Positions 43,937-53,276 of a stretch of DNA of 64,000 nucleotides are shown here, one piece after another. Each line of letters starts with the position of its first letter. Position 1 is the stretch's first letter. The stretch comes from Bacteroidota bacterium. GTDB taxonomy: Bacteria > Bacteroidota > Bacteroidia > Palsa-965. Under the pieces are notes generated by a model. That model had not been told where the DNA came from, searched no databases, and worked only from the letters and a program-made list of their open reading frames with translations. The translations under genes were made by a program, and so were the position numbers. The stretch lies in the NCBI GenBank assembly GCA_016194975.1, contig JACQAM010000003.1, forward strand, positions 186,001 to 250,000, in the 5' to 3' direction.

Positions 43937-46282
43937 ATGCGCAGATTTGCTCTCTCCATCATGATCGTGTTGTCGGCTTACGTGTCGAACGCGCAGAACA
44001 TTCTTCCATTACAGCCAAACGGGCCCATTCCTGTTTTTTATCGTTGTGCCAGCCATACACTCGTCGATCAGCAGATCGCGCAGCGTAAAGCGAATGGCGA
44101 TCCGCCAACAGAAATGGAACAGGAATTCATGCGGGAGATGAGTTATTATTCGCAGCAAAGATTTTTCTCCGGCTTCGTGCTTTACAATGATTCACTCAGC
44201 AATTATGTACAGAAAGTTGGCGATGAAGTGCTGAAGAATGATTCGGTAACCAGGAGCCAGCTTCACTTTTACGTTTACAAATCTGCCGATCCGAATGCCT
44301 ACACTTCTGCAACCGGAACTATTCTTATTACAGTAGGGCTTCTCGCGCAATTGGAGAACGAAGCGCAACTTGCTTTTATTCTTTGCCACGAGATCACGCA
44401 CTATCGCAATGAACACATGCTGAAAGGTTATCTCAATCGCGAAGAATTAAAAAACAAAGACAACACTCCTTATTATCTCCTGCAGAGTTCCGCACTTTCT
44501 TATAATCAGGAACAGGAACTGGAAGCCGACATGCAGGGATTTCAATTGTTCATGCAATCGTCTTACAGTAAAAAAGAAGCGCTCCGTTCTTTCGATGTAC
44601 TCGAGTATGCGAATTTTCCATTCGATGATGTTCCGTTCGACACCACGTTCTTCAACATGGATTACATAAAAATTCCTGCCGGCTATTATGAAAAAAATGT
44701 AGACCCGATCTACACCGATGATAATTACAACGACGTGGGAAGCACGCACCCGAATGTGCGCAAGCGCAGGATGGCGCTCATGACCGTGCTTGACACAGTG
44801 AAAAATAAAGACGGAAAACTTTTTGTTGTTTCTAAAAATGAATTTCTCTCTACGCGCGAACTTTCCCGTTACGAGATCTGCCGCCTTTATCTCGAGGATC
44901 GCGATTATCCGAATGCGATCTACGCTTCTTACATGATGCTGCAGAAACATCCAGATGATATTTATTTCAAAAAAATAATCGGGCGTTCACTTTACAATCT
45001 TGCAGCTTACGAGCAAAGCGGAAAATCAACTTACAATCCGTATGACTGGTGGGGCGGATTATTCGGCGAATCGTATGGCGGAAAATATTCTGCGCTGCTC
45101 CGCGCCGGTTACTACGGAATTCCGGATACCAAAGATTATCCCGGCGAACAGCAGCAACTCTACAGTTTATTCCACGCAATGGATCCGGATGAACTCACTT
45201 GCCTGGCGCTCGCCTACAACTGGAAAATTCATCGCGCCGATATGGGCGATTCACTGCAGCTTACGCTATGCGACAGTTTATTTTCCATGCTCGTGAATAA
45301 TCAGAATCTTCATTACTCTTATTTTTCGAAGATCACTCCCGAAGAAGCGAAAGGACAATTGAAACAAGATTCGCTCGACCGCGCGCAGGAAACCGGTGAA
45401 ACGGGCGATTCGAAATTCTCCCGTCTTGATAAATTCAAACTCTCTTCTGAAAAAGAAAAATTCACCAAGTTCGCTTTCGTGGAATTGCTGAAAGATTCTG
45501 ATTTCGTGCATCGCTTCGAATATTATACCGATCACCGGCGGGCGCTCGTAGATTATGTAGATCCCGATTCTTATGACACGCCTTCGAAGAAAGAACAGAA
45601 AAAAGAAGACGCCGATGAAAAATTGTACGGTTATGGAATCAACCGCGTCATTGTTGCCGGCCCCGATTTTGAAGAGTATCACCAGAAAGATCGTGACGAT
45701 GATCCCGAACAGGATTTTACGTTGAGCGAGAACGGGCAAACGAATATGACGAATGTGATCAATACCGCAGCGACGGATAATGGGGTGCAGGCGGTGGTGT
45801 TGAATCCGTTTACGATGGATTCTGTAAATGGCGATCAGTTCGATGATCTTGCGATGCTCAATGAATGGTTCTATGAAAAACTTGAGCACGGCGATAATAA
45901 TTATGCGTGGACAGTGAACAACCAGGCGCAGGCCGACAGCATTTCGAAAAAATACAACACGCGTTATGTGATGTTCACTGCTGTAGAAACAAATTATTAC
46001 AAACGAATTCAGCATCCGTTCTGGTACGGCGTTTCCTGCCTGGCAATTGTTCCGGCAGTACGCGCATTTATTCCGCGGAATAAATATTATTATGATGTGG
46101 CTTTACTCGATCTTAAAACGGGAGAAGTAATTTATGTTGATCACCAGGCGGAGACAAAAGGAAAAGAGAAAGAAGTGACGGCTAATTATTACAACAAACT
46201 TTTTGCAAAAATGGTGAAGCCGAAAAAACCGGTGGAGAAAAAGAAAACAAGCGAGGAAGCGGAAAAAGAAAGAGGGATGTAG
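43937..46282 (+). CDS. M48-family metallopeptidase with large C-terminal region, paralogue 1
   Basis: A 781-residue protein with a signal peptide (FALSIMIVLSAYVSNAQ). The zinc motif HEITH (151-155) and downstream QEQELEADMQGF (third ligand) define an M48 protease, as in BepA/Loi-type periplasmic proteases. Residues 260-780 are helical, then alpha/beta, ending in a segment shared with its paralogue (FIPRNKYYYDVALLDLKTGE). A role in outer-membrane protein quality control is plausible. It lies in inverted orientation to the paralogue at 50793-53105, with an accessory block between them. Confidence 0.87.
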   Translation: MRRFALSIMIVLSAYVSNAQNILPLQPNGPIPVFYRCASHTLVDQQIAQRKANGDPPTEMEQEFMREMSYYSQQRFFSGFVLYNDSLSNYVQKVGDEVLKNDSVTRSQLHFYVYKSADPNAYTSATGTILITVGLLAQLENEAQLAFILCHEITHYRNEHMLKGYLNREELKNKDNTPYYLLQSSALSYNQEQELEADMQGFQLFMQSSYSKKEALRSFDVLEYANFPFDDVPFDTTFFNMDYIKIPAGYYEKNVDPIYTDDNYNDVGSTHPNVRKRRMALMTVLDTVKNKDGKLFVVSKNEFLSTRELSRYEICRLYLEDRDYPNAIYASYMMLQKHPDDIYFKKIIGRSLYNLAAYEQSGKSTYNPYDWWGGLFGESYGGKYSALLRAGYYGIPDTKDYPGEQQQLYSLFHAMDPDELTCLALAYNWKIHRADMGDSLQLTLCDSLFSMLVNNQNLHYSYFSKITPEEAKGQLKQDSLDRAQETGETGDSKFSRLDKFKLSSEKEKFTKFAFVELLKDSDFVHRFEYYTDHRRALVDYVDPDSYDTPSKKEQKKEDADEKLYGYGINRVIVAGPDFEEYHQKDRDDDPEQDFTLSENGQTNMTNVINTAATDNGVQAVVLNPFTMDSVNGDQFDDLAMLNEWFYEKLEHGDNNYAWTVNNQAQADSISKKYNTRYVMFTAVETNYYKRIQHPFWYGVSCLAIVPAVRAFIPRNKYYYDVALLDLKTGEVIYVDHQAETKGKEKEVTANYYNKLFAKMVKPKKPVEKKKTSEEAEKERGM

Positions 46283-46410: not shown

Positions 46411-46477
46411 GTGGTTATCCTATCAATTGAAGGATTTATTAAAGGGTTTTGGGTCAAAAAACCGGGGATATAAACGA

Positions 46478-46484
46478 GTTAGGC
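46478..46484 (+). promoter_or_regulatory. Core recombination-type site GTTAGGC before cassette ORF 1
   Basis: GTTAGGC fits the integron core consensus GTTRRRY and is the exact inverse of GCCTAAC at 46979-46985, the first arm of the following attC-like site. A cassette cut after the G at both ends would carry matching arms. Confidence 0.5.
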
Positions 46485-46495
46485 GTAAGTTTAAA

Positions 46496-46984
46496 ATGAC
46501 AACCAGACAATTAAATAATATTTCGACACTGAGAACTCTAAACAAGTTCACTAACGAATATTATTTGGAAATCGCTATAGATGGAAAATCGTTAGACGTA
46601 ATTCTCAATGAGACTTACCCCGAAGACAATATGCTTGGACTTGTTCCTACTCTGCTTCATTGGTTGGAAAATGAGAATGAGCGTAAAGTGACTTGGGACA
46701 AAATAATTCCTCAAGACAACGATACTGTTATTTCACCAATATTAATGTGTTCAGACGACCTGGACTTTTGGTGTACAATTATAGTTGCTGAGTCAAAATG
46801 CATTGACGATAAAATAATTTGGTGGAGGCTAGGTTCAGACGACTCAGAAAGAGGCTTTCATCCGGAAACCGTAGGTCAAAAAGTAAACTGGTTTGACAAA
46901 ATTGGACCATTCGTTTTTGACAAGCAACAGTTTATAGACTGCGTTAACCAATTTAGACAAGAGTTAGAAAAAACCAACGCCTAA
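46496..46984 (+). CDS. Hypothetical protein, probable gene-cassette ORF 1
   Basis: A 162-residue cytoplasmic protein (MTTRQLNNISTLRTLNKFTN; PILMCSDDLDFWCTIIVAES). It is acidic and tryptophan-rich with no signal peptide. The pattern resembles small immunity-like proteins, but I cannot name a family. The frame is open from 46427; I use the ATG at 46496, which lies 12 bp after the core site GTTAGGC. The stop TAA is embedded in GCCTAAC, the start of the attC-like element. Both are usual for integron cassette genes. Confidence 0.7.
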   Translation: MTTRQLNNISTLRTLNKFTNEYYLEIAIDGKSLDVILNETYPEDNMLGLVPTLLHWLENENERKVTWDKIIPQDNDTVISPILMCSDDLDFWCTIIVAESKCIDDKIIWWRLGSDDSERGFHPETVGQKVNWFDKIGPFVFDKQQFIDCVNQFRQELEKTNA

Positions 46985-47109
46985 CACGGGGCAATTGCGT
47001 CAGCGGGCGGACGAGGGAATAAAAACATTGAGCAATAAATAAACTTGGGTGCGTTTAGACAGGTGAAGCTCCGAAAGCCCGCCGAACGCAAGCCCCGAAA
47101 CCGTTAGCA
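46979..47109 (+). repeat. attC-like recombination site 1
   Basis: Outer arms GCCTAAC (46979) and GTTAGCA (47103) enclose inner arms taacacggggcaattgcgtc (with agcgggcgg) and agcccgccgaacgcaagccc (with cgaaacc). The order TAAC..GGGGC..GCGT..GCGGGC on one side is matched by its reverse complement on the other, with spacers. Length of about 130 bp fits an attC. The imperfect-hairpin layout with unpaired bases is characteristic. Confidence 0.65.
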
Positions 47110-47152
47110 GTAATTTTTATTAATATAATATCTATTCAAAAACTTATCCGGA

Positions 47153-48091
47153 GTGAAGAACATTGAGGAGAAATTTAAGAATTCAACGCAGCAAAATTTT
47201 GATGCTGTTCAGAAAACATTCGCTCAACTGCTACAAAGTATGCGTGTTGCTTCCAACAATGGCTATCGGAATATTTTTAATTCAAACAGCTGGGGATCTA
47301 ATTATCACAAGTTGACAATTGAAGAATTGTTCTTTATGAACATGTCTGACACAGAAATCTTAACAATCTTAAATATTTCTATTTACAATTCCGTTATCAA
47401 AAAGGATTACAGCATTCTTTTAGATGGCATTTTTACTTATTCTAGATTAAGATTTTTTAGCCGAGCCTATCTTTCTGGAACAAATGATTGGACGGCTGTC
47501 GAGAGTTTAATTGTAGGCGATAAAGAATTACTGTCTTTAAATTACCCGAAAACTTTGACTTTGGAAAATGATAACTATGACCACTTTTATTTAATCAGCC
47601 GAAATCTATTGAGGACAATATTATTTAATAAAGATTGGAAAACGCAAACTCTTCAGCAATATTCAGAGCTATCAAATACAGTTTCTGGAAAATTTGATAT
47701 TTCATTTTTAAATTATTTGTACGGCTTATTAACATATAATCATGCACTTTGTAAGACTTCATTTGAACAAATGGAACAATTATACAATAAATGTCAATGG
47801 TTAGGCAGAGGTTGGTATCGTCAGGCTGACTTAACAAAACAATTACCAATATTTTTACTAGGTGCTATTCAATTAATAAAATACACAGACTCAAATTTTG
47901 AGGTTAACATAAAGAACGACTGGTTAAAAAATGCAGAAGAATTTATTCGTGAAAATAAAAATTATAAACCAAAACTTGCTTTCGAATTTGTCGATGAACT
48001 AAACTTTCTGAATGAAATTTTGACTGCCAGCTTCACCTCATTTTATTCACAATACAGGTATAAAATTGTAACTGAAATAAAAAACAACTGA
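47153..48091 (+). CDS. Hypothetical protein, probable gene-cassette ORF 2
   Basis: A 312-residue, largely helical protein rich in N, Y, K and L (KNSTQQNFDAVQKTFAQLLQ; RTILFNKDWKTQTLQQYSEL). It has no signal peptide and no recognised domain. GTG at 47153 is the start; no better ATG was seen upstream within the cassette. The gene is visibly more AT-rich than its neighbours, in keeping with transfer. It lies between attC-like sites 1 and 2. Confidence 0.65.
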   Translation: MKNIEEKFKNSTQQNFDAVQKTFAQLLQSMRVASNNGYRNIFNSNSWGSNYHKLTIEELFFMNMSDTEILTILNISIYNSVIKKDYSILLDGIFTYSRLRFFSRAYLSGTNDWTAVESLIVGDKELLSLNYPKTLTLENDNYDHFYLISRNLLRTILFNKDWKTQTLQQYSELSNTVSGKFDISFLNYLYGLLTYNHALCKTSFEQMEQLYNKCQWLGRGWYRQADLTKQLPIFLLGAIQLIKYTDSNFEVNIKNDWLKNAEEFIRENKNYKPKLAFEFVDELNFLNEILTASFTSFYSQYRYKIVTEIKNN

Positions 48092-48094
48092 TAA

Positions 48095-48250
48095 CAGCGG
48101 TGATCGTTGCCCGCCCCGGTTTGGGTCGGGCAGGCACAACTTCCCTTTTCAAAAAATAATTCTCCTATTCTGCTGAATATTGCGTCTCGCCCCCGCTCCA
48201 CAAAAGTTCACAACACAATTTTTTCTGTTAATGACAAACGGAAAATATTT
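48095..48250. repeat. Duplicated intergenic segment, copy 1
   Basis: About 155 bp from agcggtgatcgttgcccgcc to gacaaacggaaaatatttt. It matches 49213-49392 closely except for one extra palindrome unit in the second copy and a divergent 20-bp patch in the middle. Confidence 0.85.
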
Positions 48251-48440
48251 TCCAGCGAAAAACAATGTTCATAATGAACAAAAAAATGTTCATCGTCTTC
48301 TGAATTCCATTTCTCCTCATCTCCATCGCCACCACTTTTATTTTTCTCTCGTGGTAGTTCATATATTTTTTGAGATTGTACGCAATTACGGCGCCAATCA
48401 TGAACTTGTTCGCGTTTTTAATTCCTCTGTAGTGGTAGCT
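48228..48440 (-). pseudogene. Transposase C-terminal remnant (IS1182/IS4-like)
   Basis: The minus strand reads YHYRGIKNANKFMIGAVIAY followed by NLKKYMNYHERK and about 35 further residues to a stop. 'RGI..ANK.....A.AYNLKKY' is the usual C-terminal end of DDE transposases of the IS1182/IS5-like groups in this phylum. The catalytic part is absent, so this is a fragment. Confidence 0.6.
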
Positions 48441-48578
48441 TGACAGATGGTGCTTCGAAAGCCCCGCCTTCGGCAAGCTGCAAAACGTTAGCGGCAAGCA
48501 TGCGACAACTGCAAGATGATGACTATCATCACAACCTATGACCAATATCAATTTTGATATTTCTTATTCTAATTACTA

Positions 48579-49163
48579 TTGGAACTATATCTAATATATT
48601 ATGACAATGAATTAATTACAAAAAACTTTTTACTAAAAATATTTATTACTGCTATTCTTTTCTTTCCGCTTTTTGTTTGGAGCCAGGAAGCACCCAATAA
48701 AGGTGTAAAAGCTGGTTGGGCAATGAATATTGGTGCGGGGGTTATGTTTGGAGGAAACCTCGGAATTCAAATTGAAAATCAAATTCTTTTAAAAGAAAAA
48801 CTTCGGCTTTCTCCTTTTGTTTCAGCTGGAGTTGGAGAAGGTGGAACTGATCCCATCACCTCTAAAAAATATTATTGGTTCGGATACGCTGCTGGTGCAA
48901 ATCTTGAATATGGAAAAAAACACAGGATAATTTTAGGCTCTCATTTTGTAGGGAATAATCTTATTGAAAATTCTAATGCAGTAAAAAAGAATTTCTTTGG
49001 TGGACTTTCGTTTATTCTTGGCTATAAAGGGACTGCCGATTTTGGTTTGATATGGCAAGTATATATCGGAGATCTTTATTCGCCTGATGATGATCCCTTT
49101 TCAGCCAATAAAAAATACGAGCATAGATCTCAGGTTGGGATTGGGCTCGGTTACAAATTTTAG
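48579..49163 (+). CDS. Outer-membrane beta-barrel-like protein, probable gene-cassette ORF 3
   Basis: A 194-residue protein with a hydrophobic N-terminus (FLLKIFITAILFFPLFVWSQ) followed by alternating strands (AMNIGAGVMFGGNLGIQIEN; FVSAGVGEG) and a C-terminal GYKF typical of barrels. It is probably a small outer-membrane protein. No in-frame ATG exists upstream; TTG at 48579 is the first available start, and the true start or a small sequence error is uncertain. It follows the core site GTTAGCGGC at 48487. Confidence 0.6.
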   Translation: MELYLIYYDNELITKNFLLKIFITAILFFPLFVWSQEAPNKGVKAGWAMNIGAGVMFGGNLGIQIENQILLKEKLRLSPFVSAGVGEGGTDPITSKKYYWFGYAAGANLEYGKKHRIILGSHFVGNNLIENSNAVKKNFFGGLSFILGYKGTADFGLIWQVYIGDLYSPDDDPFSANKKYEHRSQVGIGLGYKF

Positions 49164-49500
49164 CTCTAAGCGACCAAGACAAATTTATATAGACAAGAAT
49201 GCCAGCCACTAACAGCAGTGGCCGTTGCCCGCCCCGGTTTGGGTCGGGCAGGCCCGCCCCGGTTTGGGGCGGGCAGGCACAACTTCCCTTTTCAAAAAAT
49301 AATTCTCCTATTCGCCCGAATAGCGCAACTCATTCCCGCTCCAGAAAAGTTCACAACACAATTTTTTCTGTTAATGGCAAACGGAAAATATTTTTATATA
49401 AAGCAAGAAAAATCTCCCCATTCTCATATTCAAACAGCTAATCGAATTCAAAGTGAGACCGGCACTTTGATTCGTTGTTTCGTTTTCGTAAATTTATATC
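49164..49500. other. Gene-free gap with half attC-like site and duplicated segment
   Basis: No gene is seen in these 337 bp. They hold GCCACTAAC (49205-49213), eight of nine bases inverse to GTTAGCGGC at 48487, then copy 2 of the duplicated segment. No second arm of an attC was found, so the third site looks truncated. Confidence 0.6.
49213..49392. repeat. Duplicated intergenic segment, copy 2
   Basis: It matches 48095-48250. The GC-rich palindrome gcccgccccggtttggg(t)cg is present twice in tandem here (49227-49278) and once in copy 1. Without it the underlying sequence would read cagtggccgttgcacaac in both copies, suggesting that the palindrome was inserted. Confidence 0.85.
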
Positions 49501-49743
49501 ATGAAAAACATAAAAGATTTCATTACTATTGACCCGGAGACGATGGGAGGTCAACCTGTTTTTAAAGGTACTCGTGTCCCGATTGAAACACTTTTCGATC
49601 ATCTTGAAGAGGGAGTTTCGCTTGATGAATTCCTCGCTGATTTTGATACGGTCTCAAAAGACCAGGCTATTGCGGTTATGGAAATCGCAAGTAAGTTACT
49701 TTCCTCTTCCAAAATCAGTGAACTATATGCTTCTGTTGCTTGA
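49501..49743 (+). CDS. DUF433 domain protein, putative antitoxin
   Basis: An 80-residue protein with the DUF433 pattern ITIDPETMGGQPVFKGTRVP and a winged-helix-like C-terminus (SLDEFLADFDTVSKDQAIAV). DUF433 proteins are commonly the DNA-binding antitoxin partner of DUF5615 PIN-like toxins. It overlaps the next gene by 17 bp, so the two are translated together. Confidence 0.88.
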   Translation: MKNIKDFITIDPETMGGQPVFKGTRVPIETLFDHLEEGVSLDEFLADFDTVSKDQAIAVMEIASKLLSSSKISELYASVA

Positions 49744-50047
49744 CGAAAATCTTCCAAAGAAACTCAAGAATGATTTTCCAGGTCATGAAGTTTTTTCGAT
49801 AAAAGAACACGGGTGGAACGGTTTGAAAAATGGCATTCTCATGCAAAAACTTATTGAAAACAAATTCTCAGCTTTAATCACCTTCGATAAGAATCTTCAG
49901 CACCAACAAAATTTCAAGAAGTATCCAATTACTGTATTTGTTCTTAGCGCACGAATCAATAAGTATTCTGTACTAACGAAATTGTCTCCTCAAATTCTCG
50001 ACCATCTTAGTCGACCTTTATTGCCTGGCCCGGTTGAAATAAAATAA
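49727..50047 (+). CDS. DUF5615 PIN-like protein, putative toxin
   Basis: A 106-residue protein that starts MLLLLDENLPKKL, where D-E-N is the first acidic site of the Mut7-C/PIN-like fold, and continues SALITFDKNLQHQQNF with the second acidic site. It is probably a ribonuclease toxin controlled by the upstream DUF433 protein. Start is the ATG at 49727. It lies at the right edge of the accessory block. Confidence 0.85.
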   Translation: MLLLLDENLPKKLKNDFPGHEVFSIKEHGWNGLKNGILMQKLIENKFSALITFDKNLQHQQNFKKYPITVFVLSARINKYSVLTKLSPQILDHLSRPLLPGPVEIK

Positions 50048-50142: not shown

Positions 50143-50796
50143 TCAAATCAACAGTGCCACTCCGAAGAACACAGAAAAATATTCCTTGAACGCTGTGCGG
50201 CGGTGAATGTAATTGCTCTCATCCACTTTTCCGAGATTGAGTACCGGGTAACCAAAACGAAGTCCTGTATTCGCAACAAGATGATCCCAGAAAACTCCCT
50301 GCGTTCCGAATGCAACATGCAGCATAAGATCGTTCGAACTTTTCGGCATGAGTTCCGGGCTGTAATAATAATGGTTCTTCGTAGAATCGGAAGCAGAGAA
50401 CGTACTCATTGCGTAACTCAAACTCACATCATAGAATTTTCCGATCGGTGCAATTCCTCCGCGGTCTGCGCGGAATGTGCGCACACAAACTCCGAATTGT
50501 TTTGCATGAATAACATCGCCGGCAGCGAGTGAACTGAAATAAAGTTCATTGTTCTTCAGCGACCACATATTATAAAAAACGCCCACCTGCATTCTGCGCG
50601 CAACAATGCAATTCACATTGGCGCCATACTGCACATCGTAGTGCAATGCAAAATCTTTTGCAGAAGTATAGAACGGCGCATAACTTCCTTCCATGCCGAT
50701 GATGATGCGATGGCCGAGATAACCACCGGTTCCCGGAGTTGCATCAACTGTTATCACTGAAGATGCAATGAATAATGTGAAGAAAAACTTTTTCAT
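50143..50796 (-). CDS. Hypothetical outer-membrane barrel-like protein
   Basis: A 217-residue protein with a signal peptide (KKFFFTLFIASSVITVDATP) and alternating strands (GHRIIIGMEGSYAPFYTS; RRMQVGVFYNMWSL; EYFSVFFGVALLI at the C-terminus). It is likely a small outer-membrane barrel. The start overlaps the stop of the M48 protease by 4 bp (ATGA), so it is co-translated with that gene and may be its partner or substrate. Confidence 0.7.
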   Translation of the reverse strand: MKKFFFTLFIASSVITVDATPGTGGYLGHRIIIGMEGSYAPFYTSAKDFALHYDVQYGANVNCIVARRMQVGVFYNMWSLKNNELYFSSLAAGDVIHAKQFGVCVRTFRADRGGIAPIGKFYDVSLSYAMSTFSASDSTKNHYYYSPELMPKSSNDLMLHVAFGTQGVFWDHLVANTGLRFGYPVLNLGKVDESNYIHRRTAFKEYFSVFFGVALLI

Positions 50797-53105
50797 TTTT
50801 TATCCTCCTTCTTCGGTTTTGATAATTGACGGATGAGATCGAACACGTGAAGTTTCATCCGGTCCTTCGTTGCTTTTTGATTTGTCATTTGTGTTTTCTG
50901 AACGAAGACCGGTTTGCCGGTGGAAACATCGTACACAATGGAATAATAATAAACATCTTCGCGCGGCGTGATCAGGCGATAAACCGTATGCGGCAATAAT
51001 GGAAGCGCAACAAGTTCGAGCGCGCGCACTACGTATCCGCCGCGCTTCTGCCTGTACGTGTAGTACGCCGACCACATAAAATAATTCGTTCCGTATTTTT
51101 GCGCAATGGCGTGCATGTCTTCCATCGGGTAAGGAAGAATCTGGTTGTCGCCATACTGGTCGCGCTGTTCGAACCATTCGCTGGCAACAAGCAGGTCATT
51201 CAGTTTTCCCACGCTTGTAGAATCGAGTCCGTTCCCATCGAGAAATTCTATTTGCATTCCGCATTTATCGGCGCTCGACTGCATCTCTTTGAGCAGATCC
51301 GCTTTTCCTTCGAGCGATTTCATTACATCCACATCCGAATTCTCATCCTTATCGGAATAAGCAACGAAGATCGGGTTCACTGCAATTATTTTGGAAATTC
51401 CCTGCGGCGCAGTAAATCTTTCTTCCCGCTCTTTTTCTAATTTACTTTGCGCCCTGCCGCTTTTTTCATCGTAGAGTGAATCGGCAATTACAAGACTGTC
51501 GGCGTAATTGCTTGCCCAGCGATACAACTGCACAAAACCGGAATCTTTCATTTCATTGAGAAAAGCAAATTGCCAGTAATGAAAATGCTGTATCGAATCT
51601 TTATCCATGTGATCGAGCGCCACACGATATCTTTCTGTAGGCGTATCTGTTTTTATTTTTTTTGCAAGCGCTGTATCTTTTTTTGCATTATCGCCAAGCG
51701 CAATGAACAAGCTGTCTGTTTTTGCAAAATCCTTGAAGCGGATATCATTCTTCACCGCGAGTTCACGTGCAATTCCCTGGCACCAGGTGTAAATATCTTT
51801 GTCATCAGGATATTTGAGATGTGCCTGCCACGCATAGTCGAGCACCATCACATTCCATCCCGTCGCATCTGTTTTATTCACGAATGCAGTGAGCCGTCCC
51901 TGTTCACCAATTACTTTATCATCTTCTGCCGACATGCTGAACCATGCCTGGAATAAAGCAGCGAGATCGCTGAAATCGTAAGCACGATTTTTCTCAATGA
52001 CTTCCGCGTAGAGCGCACGCACCATTTCGCGCGTGAGGTAATGATTGTCGGGATAACTTTTCTGATCCACGTAATCAGCATAAATGGATTGCGTCCATTC
52101 ACCGTCCGAAATATGTTCATCACATTCTTCGAAGCGCGCCATCTCTTTTATTTTGTAAAACATTTCGGAAGAAACCAGGAAGTAAACGCCTGTTGTGTCC
52201 TTCGGATCCAGCTTGGAAAATTTTTTCACGATTGCTTTTCTTCTTTTGTAAACGCTCGGGTGAGTCGCCAGATCATCATCTTCATCTTCGTCCTGCGGTT
52301 TGATCGCCTTCACCGTGTCGACCTGAAATCTCGAAGGAAAAAGAAGATAATATGTTTCGAAAAAATTTTTAGAAAAAGAAGTATCGCTGAAAGGCGCATC
52401 GGCAAGAGCGAGAATATCGAAAGCAGCAATAGCAGCATGCGGATCGTAATTTGAATTCACGAGTAATTCAAATCCTTCTTCGTCCGCCTGCGATTCCTGG
52501 CTGCGCGCGTAACGGTGGCGCTTGAGATAACGATTTTCAAAAGTAGTTTCTTCGTATTTCCCGATACCGTTCTGCGCTTTTACTCCTTCCTGATATCCCT
52601 GCAAAACGTGATGCCGTTTGAAGTGGATTATTTCGTGCGCGAGCACATACGCGAGTTCCGCCTCATTCTGCAAACGCGTGAGCAATCCAACGGTGACAAA
52701 GATCACGCCCTGGTCGGTGGTGAACGCATTCACTGCTGAAGAACGTAAAACATAAAACGTAATTTTCTTTCTCAGTTCCGGATCCTGCTTGAGCAAAAGA
52801 GAATCGGCAACGCGGTTCACATACATACCGAGCGTATCATTCACCAGCACCGTTCCGCTGAAACGAAGCTGATCAATGGAATAATTATTCTGAAGATAGA
52901 ATTGTTGTTCCGCCTTCTGTTCTTTCTGGTCGTCGGTGCTGATCTTCTGTATATCCTGCTCGTACTTTTCTGCAGTGGAAGTGAGAAAATCTTTCGGGAG
53001 CGGCCCGTTGGATCTCGCCGGTTTGTAATTATCCATGTTCGGATGTTGTGCGAACAGGAGAACCGGAAAACAAAGAACGGACGCAATTTGAGAGAGTCGT
53101 TTCAT
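50793..53105 (-). CDS. M48-family metallopeptidase with large C-terminal region, paralogue 2
   Basis: A 770-residue protein with a signal peptide (RLSQIASVLCFPVLLFAQ). The zinc motif is HEIIH (157-161), and SQESQADEEGFELL supplies the third ligand. The C-terminal part ends LITPREDVYYYSIVYDVSTG, matching the end of paralogue 1. The start is the ATG at 53105; the frame is open to 53165 but that part is not signal-like. The product is a periplasmic or outer-membrane-associated protease with an unknown target. Confidence 0.87.
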   Translation of the reverse strand: MKRLSQIASVLCFPVLLFAQHPNMDNYKPARSNGPLPKDFLTSTAEKYEQDIQKISTDDQKEQKAEQQFYLQNNYSIDQLRFSGTVLVNDTLGMYVNRVADSLLLKQDPELRKKITFYVLRSSAVNAFTTDQGVIFVTVGLLTRLQNEAELAYVLAHEIIHFKRHHVLQGYQEGVKAQNGIGKYEETTFENRYLKRHRYARSQESQADEEGFELLVNSNYDPHAAIAAFDILALADAPFSDTSFSKNFFETYYLLFPSRFQVDTVKAIKPQDEDEDDDLATHPSVYKRRKAIVKKFSKLDPKDTTGVYFLVSSEMFYKIKEMARFEECDEHISDGEWTQSIYADYVDQKSYPDNHYLTREMVRALYAEVIEKNRAYDFSDLAALFQAWFSMSAEDDKVIGEQGRLTAFVNKTDATGWNVMVLDYAWQAHLKYPDDKDIYTWCQGIARELAVKNDIRFKDFAKTDSLFIALGDNAKKDTALAKKIKTDTPTERYRVALDHMDKDSIQHFHYWQFAFLNEMKDSGFVQLYRWASNYADSLVIADSLYDEKSGRAQSKLEKEREERFTAPQGISKIIAVNPIFVAYSDKDENSDVDVMKSLEGKADLLKEMQSSADKCGMQIEFLDGNGLDSTSVGKLNDLLVASEWFEQRDQYGDNQILPYPMEDMHAIAQKYGTNYFMWSAYYTYRQKRGGYVVRALELVALPLLPHTVYRLITPREDVYYYSIVYDVSTGKPVFVQKTQMTNQKATKDRMKLHVFDLIRQLSKPKKEDKK

Positions 53106-53276
53106 AGTTTCAAAGTTACATGCAATGTACTGTTTTAATAATCCAATTTTGATTAAAAGTGACAAAAAAAACAGAACGTATATTCACTTGTTAAAAAAAC
53201 AGGGACGGTTGTCCTGCAAACATGTATTCCAATGAACGGATTCTGTTTCTTTATAGTGGAATTCAGTTATAGCAAT

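Follow-up and report, generated by a model that had tools for sequence, protein, structure and literature searches.

A short cassette array in a Bacteroidota genome and a candidate integron lineage whose integrase lacks the I2 insert

Chromosomal integrons comprise an integrase gene adjacent to attI and tandem, mostly single-gene cassettes with attC hairpins, follow the R''/R' logic with crossover between G and TT, and draw on cassettes common to distant hosts; all these features recur in the lineage described here, whose integrase is the sister of IntI in our trees. A specific insertion, called essential for integron function, is incompletely conserved in an integron-like subgroup of tyrosine recombinases (Smyshlyaev 2021; PMC8138268). 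The I2 insert is reported to be necessary for cassette capture by IntI, and acquisition of the I2 helix is regarded as the event that created integrons (PMC7790495). Two or more attC sites that lie within 4 kb of DNA and lack a neighboring integrase are termed a CALIN; such clusters can form through loss, through off-target insertion or through rearrangement (PMC8618304). An attC screen of the chromosomes of 20 phyla yielded models for 11 taxa, Bacteroidota not among them (PMC8352920), and in another study Bacteroidetes were represented by In0, from an earlier study, and one complete integron, from Salinibacter (PMC9024848). In the open-access literature, preprints excluded, we found no earlier description of the lineage.

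Anatomy of the array and its attC-like sites

The window analyzed here is the whole stretch of 64,000 nucleotides of a Bacteroidota contig. A sequence-only reading had described, at 46478-49213, an integron-like cassette array without an integrase, and we find the cores, and the inverse ends of all three intervals, at the positions it gave. The array and its parts are as follows.

46466..46480, plus strand: attI-like core, GGATATAAACGA followed by GTT, the left boundary of the array; contains the 14-mer GATATAAACGAGTT (46467-46480)
46478..47103, plus strand: cassette 1, running from the TT of GTTAGGCGT to the G that precedes the next TT; start and end self-match over 9 bases
46496..46984, plus strand: ORF1, 162 aa from ATG, with its stop inside attC-like site 1
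46979..47109, plus strand: attC-like site 1, with R'' GCCTAAC, inner arms, an apex of about 55 nt and R' GTTAGCA
47103..48487, plus strand: cassette 2, start/end self-match 8/9
47153..48091, plus strand: ORF2, 312 aa, without a significant family match
48088..48493, plus strand: attC-like site 2, split by an IS remnant into halves at 48088-48115 (left) and 48448-48493 (right)
48110..48440, minus strand: 3'-end remnant of a DDE_Tnp_1_6 (IS1182-like) transposase, a repeat of the genome directly behind R''-like half-sites
48487..49213, plus strand: cassette 3, incomplete at its right end, start/end self-match 8/9
48579..49163, plus strand: ORF3, 194 aa, without a significant family match
49207..49390, plus strand: third attC-like site, left half only, with a second copy of the IS remnant

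The core GTTAGGCGT at 46478 is the inverse of 46977-46985 over nine contiguous bases, GTTAGCAGT at 47103 matches the inverse of ACTGATAAC at 48086-48094 in 8/9 positions, and GTTAGCGGC at 48487 matches that of GCCACTAAC at 49205-49213, again in 8/9; each of the three intervals holds one ORF. The ORF1 stop (TAA) falls within the first site, the inner arms of which are complete and imperfect (CGGGGC/GCCCCG, TTGCGT/ACGCAA and GCGGGC/GCCCGC), both as had been read from the sequence. The observation stands, with amendments for the later sites. Site 1 is intact; the half-sites of site 2 stand about 350 bp apart, with the 3' end of a DDE transposase pseudogene in antisense between them, and do not make up a compact attC; and the third site consists of a left half followed by the IS-remnant repeat, with no R' partner found, so that cassette 3 is unbounded on the right.

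Sites 2 and 3 have a common left half, different from that of site 1, and this left half together with the transposase 3' end recurs behind at least eight other ORFs of the genome. The family assignment of the transposase (PF13751, E=1.5e-12) was made on a longer copy in contig C26. Copies of the repeat lie at 48110-48440 and 49225-49390 of the window, and further ones at C23:248860, C26:13649, C17:9177, C24:13712, C24:10172, C12:11779, C23:321580 and C23:322560; the decayed DDE_Tnp_1_6 3' end repeatedly adjoins attC-like left half-sites (NNNYAACAGCRGTGRCCGTTGCCCGCCC). It looks as if the element targeted, or travelled with, attC sites.

Measured against the CALIN definition, the window holds one intact site (by our own model), one interrupted site and one half-site. 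It resembles CALINs in having attC-like sites and no integrase nearby, but differs from them in that the cognate recombinase, which is of another type, is encoded elsewhere in the genome and in that a single site is intact. A search of the window for cores of the GTTRRRN type gave no convincing site, which shows why canonical patterns fail here, and Rfam gave no match.

The attC-like family and the ends of its cassettes

Nine sites, from the genus and the family, were assembled from DNA resembling site 1 and used to build a covariance model. Site 1 itself, for which an attC covariance model had been proposed as a check, scores 105.7 bits (cmsearch, 46977-47110), a value that is partly circular because site 1 is one of the nine. 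Matches were found in 251 of 395 sampled genomes of the class (E ≤ 0.01 per genome), about 4 of which could be due to chance; given that no more than 8 candidates per genome were scored, site counts are lower bounds. Many of the copies are single and scattered across the genomes. The stem covaries: 91% of cells are paired, double changes occur in 20 of 23 pairs, and the score is 0.505 versus ≤0.057 when slid, in an alignment that was fitted to the model structure; covariation is also seen in a set not fitted to the model.

The canonical consensus is rare, with GTTRRRY in 18 of 263 R' boxes and RYYYAAC in 16 of 263 R'' boxes; unlike in chromosomal integrons, the boxes of this lineage are conserved just as GTTR/YAAC. 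A classical intI scoring over the curated cut-off is present in one of the 395 genomes (G150:C40:3592-4530, L035, about 53% identity to IntI1). These counts bear on the reading of the window locus as an orphan CALIN of a classical integron, with intI lost or residing in another host and only ordinary IntI moving the cassettes. CALINs devoid of intI are known, with loss, off-target insertion and rearrangement as their routes (PMC8618304), and the genome studied here has no classical IntI; but sites in 251 genomes as opposed to one intI, few canonical boxes, and arrays headed by a different recombinase with an attI of its own (see below) make this origin highly improbable.

At one locus on the minus strand (L030), three consecutive sites delimit cassettes whose first ten bases are in each case the exact inverse of the cassette's own end (GTTAGGGGGC/GCCCCCTAAC and GTTAGCTGTA/TACAGCTAAC). 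To quantify such self-matching, we took cassettes lying between neighboring same-strand sites and set the seven bases past their opening GTT against the inverse of their end. Across 76 cassettes, the mean match was 5.91/7, versus 3.11 for the two arms of a single site and 3.13 for shuffled partners (maximum 3.55 in 1000 shuffles); for 61 cassettes at loci chosen by the recombinase, the respective values were 5.52/7, 3.20 and 3.07. The two sets are not wholly disjoint and a few genomes may recur under different names; one of the seven compared bases is paired within the site by the model, which biases against the result. Cassette starts thus match their own ends and not the other arm of the site, the pattern that circularised cassettes require, and given that these 76 and 61 other cassettes lie far above the shuffles, the self-match in the window exceeds chance as well.

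A recombinase of the lineage, its attI and its arrays

The description 'without an integrase' is correct as regards the locus and a classical IntI, but not as regards the genome. A genome-wide search for intI, which had been recommended, gave no match to TIGR02249 over the cut-off; contig C21, however, encodes the lineage's own integrase beside an attI. Weak matches to this profile in array-bearing genomes adjoin the arrays, and the representative of the family is C21:96-1220 (minus strand). This protein scores 195 bits and the A set's first member 206, both below the TIGR02249 cut-off of 265; against the XerA-type profile NF040815 (cut-off 220) they score 215, again below the cut-off, and 222, respectively. 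Every one of the 35 A-set members has a match to each of these two NCBIfam profiles (within the set, scores were set against cut-offs for the first member only).

The A-type recombinases (about 345-395 aa) begin with a small alpha/beta domain, followed by a core-binding domain that is SAM-like and by the catalytic domain. In the alignment, the insert of about 37 residues (I2) that is present in IntI1 and in the G150 IntI is missing from both the A type and a second, B type; the absence of I2 and the additional N-terminal domain distinguish the integrase of this lineage from those of chromosomal integrons. The closest solved structures are XerA and IntI4, with Z scores of 24.6 and 20.9 for entries 4a8e and 5hxy, respectively, which stand for XerA and other simple tyrosine recombinases. 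The lineage resembles these in nearest structure and in the absence of I2; it differs from XerA/Xer in its tie to cassette arrays and its grouping with IntI in the tree, and from Xer in possessing the N-terminal domain. In a tree with few rows per family and an arbitrary root, the A type, the B type and IntI fall together, opposite Xer/XerA (support 97/97); a larger tree recovers the same split (99/97), but with one long-branch row labelled Xer on the other side. Types A and B form the sister group of IntI with support 91/93, again with few rows and an arbitrary root.

In the N-terminal domain, the predicted order of elements is beta-beta-alpha-beta-beta-alpha. A fold search with the whole protein lists recombinases and hardly tests this domain; a Foldseek search with the domain gave nothing significant, the top row being the SMARCAL1 HARP domain (4o66, E=0.81). 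The related-looking DUF5710 was matched in 10 of the 35 A-set members (best E=0.021). That the domain might be HARP-like is only a hunch.

Arrays and recombinase genes are found together. AttC-like sites are present in 71 of the 74 genomes with a close homologue of the recombinase (E ≤ 1e-90; 74 of 395, counted by hand from the list) versus 180 of the 321 others (Fisher p=1e-12, with genomes taken as independent). Given these 180 site-bearing genomes without a close recombinase, other enzymes (the B type or remoter homologues) or orphan arrays must be common. We further collected 80 loci from named genomes, including cultured Flavobacterium, Algoriphagus and Pelobium, on the basis of the recombinase alone. 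All 104 attC matches at these loci are on the recombinase strand and 103 are downstream of the gene; 37 of the 80 loci have such sites, and many of the remainder end shortly past the gene. At 26 of the 33 loci where the distance could be measured, the first cassette starts 67-133 bp past the recombinase stop, mostly at 90-102 bp, and is preceded by a conserved attI that consists of an inverted repeat and TATAAACAA followed by GTTA. The attI sequence probably also sets the lineage apart from chromosomal integrons. A further difference from these integrons lies in gene orientation: the A type is co-directional with its array and the B type (L084, L149 and L150) divergent to its own, which has a distinct core, TTGCGTATATTTGAAA followed by GTTA. 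Two dispersed arrays in one genome (G003) begin at this B-type core.

Cassettes are also shared among hosts. A 1,435-bp mercury-resistance (mer) cassette occurs in the arrays of six genomes at 93-98% identity, with differing neighbors and with exact ends (a G followed by TTAGTGGC at the start, ACG or CCG before TT at the end) that are common to different families; the F. denitrificans copy occupies the first position, next to attI. As read from one copy, it encodes an ArsR-type regulator, a MerT-HMA protein and a small cysteine-rich protein.

Alternatively, the hairpins might act at the RNA level, as terminators of scattered genes or as stability elements in their 3' UTRs, with the recombinase incidental, and indeed they are stable, lie behind ORFs and often occur as scattered single copies. 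Such elements, however, would leave unexplained why the bases beside the hairpin agree with the opposite end of the gene and not with the second arm, why a cassette common to several families ends exactly at G/TT, and why the strand and position of the sites are fixed relative to the recombinase and attI is conserved; we disfavor this possibility as extremely remote.

Origin of the window array and the status of I2

The cassette-array interpretation is upheld by the covariance model, the self-match statistics, the cassettes common to different genomes and the accessory nature of the insert. Relatives do not carry these ORFs as fixed, collinear genes, the outcome that would have spoken against an array: in the genus, the flanking M48 pair and ORF217 are retained, the content of the interval differs and the cassette ORFs are absent. 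The two M48-type peptidase genes (43937-46282 and 50793-53165) are large, convergent, mutually related and conserved in the genus, with variable content between them. Directly behind the array (49501-50047), a DUF433 gene overlaps a DUF5615/PIN-like gene, likely a toxin-antitoxin pair.

ORF1 has no Pfam or NCBIfam match; its homologues occur in two of 384 other genomes of the class (L284 and L285), none within the genus, and neither has an attC-like site or self-matching ends. ORF2 has no homologue in 374 other genomes sampled. The suggestion to look for the same cassettes in other contexts thus brought no support, as neither ORF1 nor ORF2 was found as a cassette outside the window in the sampled genomes of the class.

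Elsewhere in the genome, C21 stops exactly at the boundary of attI and GTT, as do contigs of other genomes (L164, L168, L169, L200 and L235), and the same 141 bp open C26, where a self-matching cassette (139-857) with a site at 849-982 follows the overlap. An overlap of length k at the crossover base is consistent with a branch of the assembly graph at this point, which would imply that the sequenced cells differed in their first cassette. Farther along this contig, a HigB/HigA-like toxin-antitoxin pair (G000:C26:14330-14915, L017) forms a cassette from GTTAGTAACG to an attC-like site that resembles window site 1 in its left half (93% identity) but not in its right half. The 14-mer GATATAAACGAGTT occurs exactly three times in the genome: at the window edge (46467-46480), at C21:1-14 and, in the overlap of C21, at C26:128-141. 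Given this edge, the differing intervals of the relatives and the rarity of ORF1 and ORF2, the array appears to be an accessory one at an attI-like secondary site.

The same core at both places would also be expected if the window array were a piece that rearrangement had moved out of the C21/C26 array, or out of another integron since lost, with no insertion in trans. A degraded integron does exist at C23:247955-248146, where the last 31 recombinase codons (68% identity), attI and one or more cassettes are retained; upstream of 46466, by contrast, there is no recombinase remnant, and the attI inverted repeat is absent beyond the 14-bp core. We consider such a fragment possible but rather unlikely. 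Given that the integrase on C21 adjoins an attI with a 14-bp core identical to the window edge, the locus is probably a CALIN-like satellite of a non-classical integron rather than the orphan of a lost intI.

Very probably, then, the window holds a short mobile-cassette array of a Bacteroidota integron lineage missed by current criteria, presumably a satellite inserted in trans and later damaged by a transposase remnant. The sequences show the anatomy, the co-location, the boundaries and the sharing of cassettes, from which catalysis, the choice of strand and integration in trans are inferred. The enzyme would insert a circularised cassette into attI or attC, with the joint between G and TT, and the long hairpin, given its covariation, suggests that attC is used as a folded single strand. 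In this genome, the enzyme is encoded on C21 and its array carried on in C26; the satellite would have begun by integration at the attI-like site between the two conserved M48-peptidase genes, and the transposase remnant would later have damaged the subsequent attC sites of the window. Against this scenario stand the single intact attC-like site of the array, the failure to find ORF1 and ORF2 as cassettes beyond the window, a boundary without the attI inverted repeat past the 14-bp core, and the reported necessity of I2 for cassette capture by IntI (PMC7790495).

The lineage appears to be widespread in Bacteroidota, with an integrase that lacks the extra helix thought to be needed by all integron integrases. 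Whether a large, unrecognised lineage takes up cassettes as folded single strands with no I2 helix, perhaps by means of an N-terminal fork-binding (HARP-like) domain, either as a pre-I2 relic or as a second solution to single-strand recombination, is a proposition for which we see the case as evenly balanced. An I2-less sister clade on intact attI/attC arrays makes the claim that I2 marks the origin of integrons (PMC7790495) directly testable, and a search that relies on I2 or on GTTRRRY cores can overlook a pool of cassettes common among Bacteroidota, cultured Flavobacterium and Algoriphagus included.
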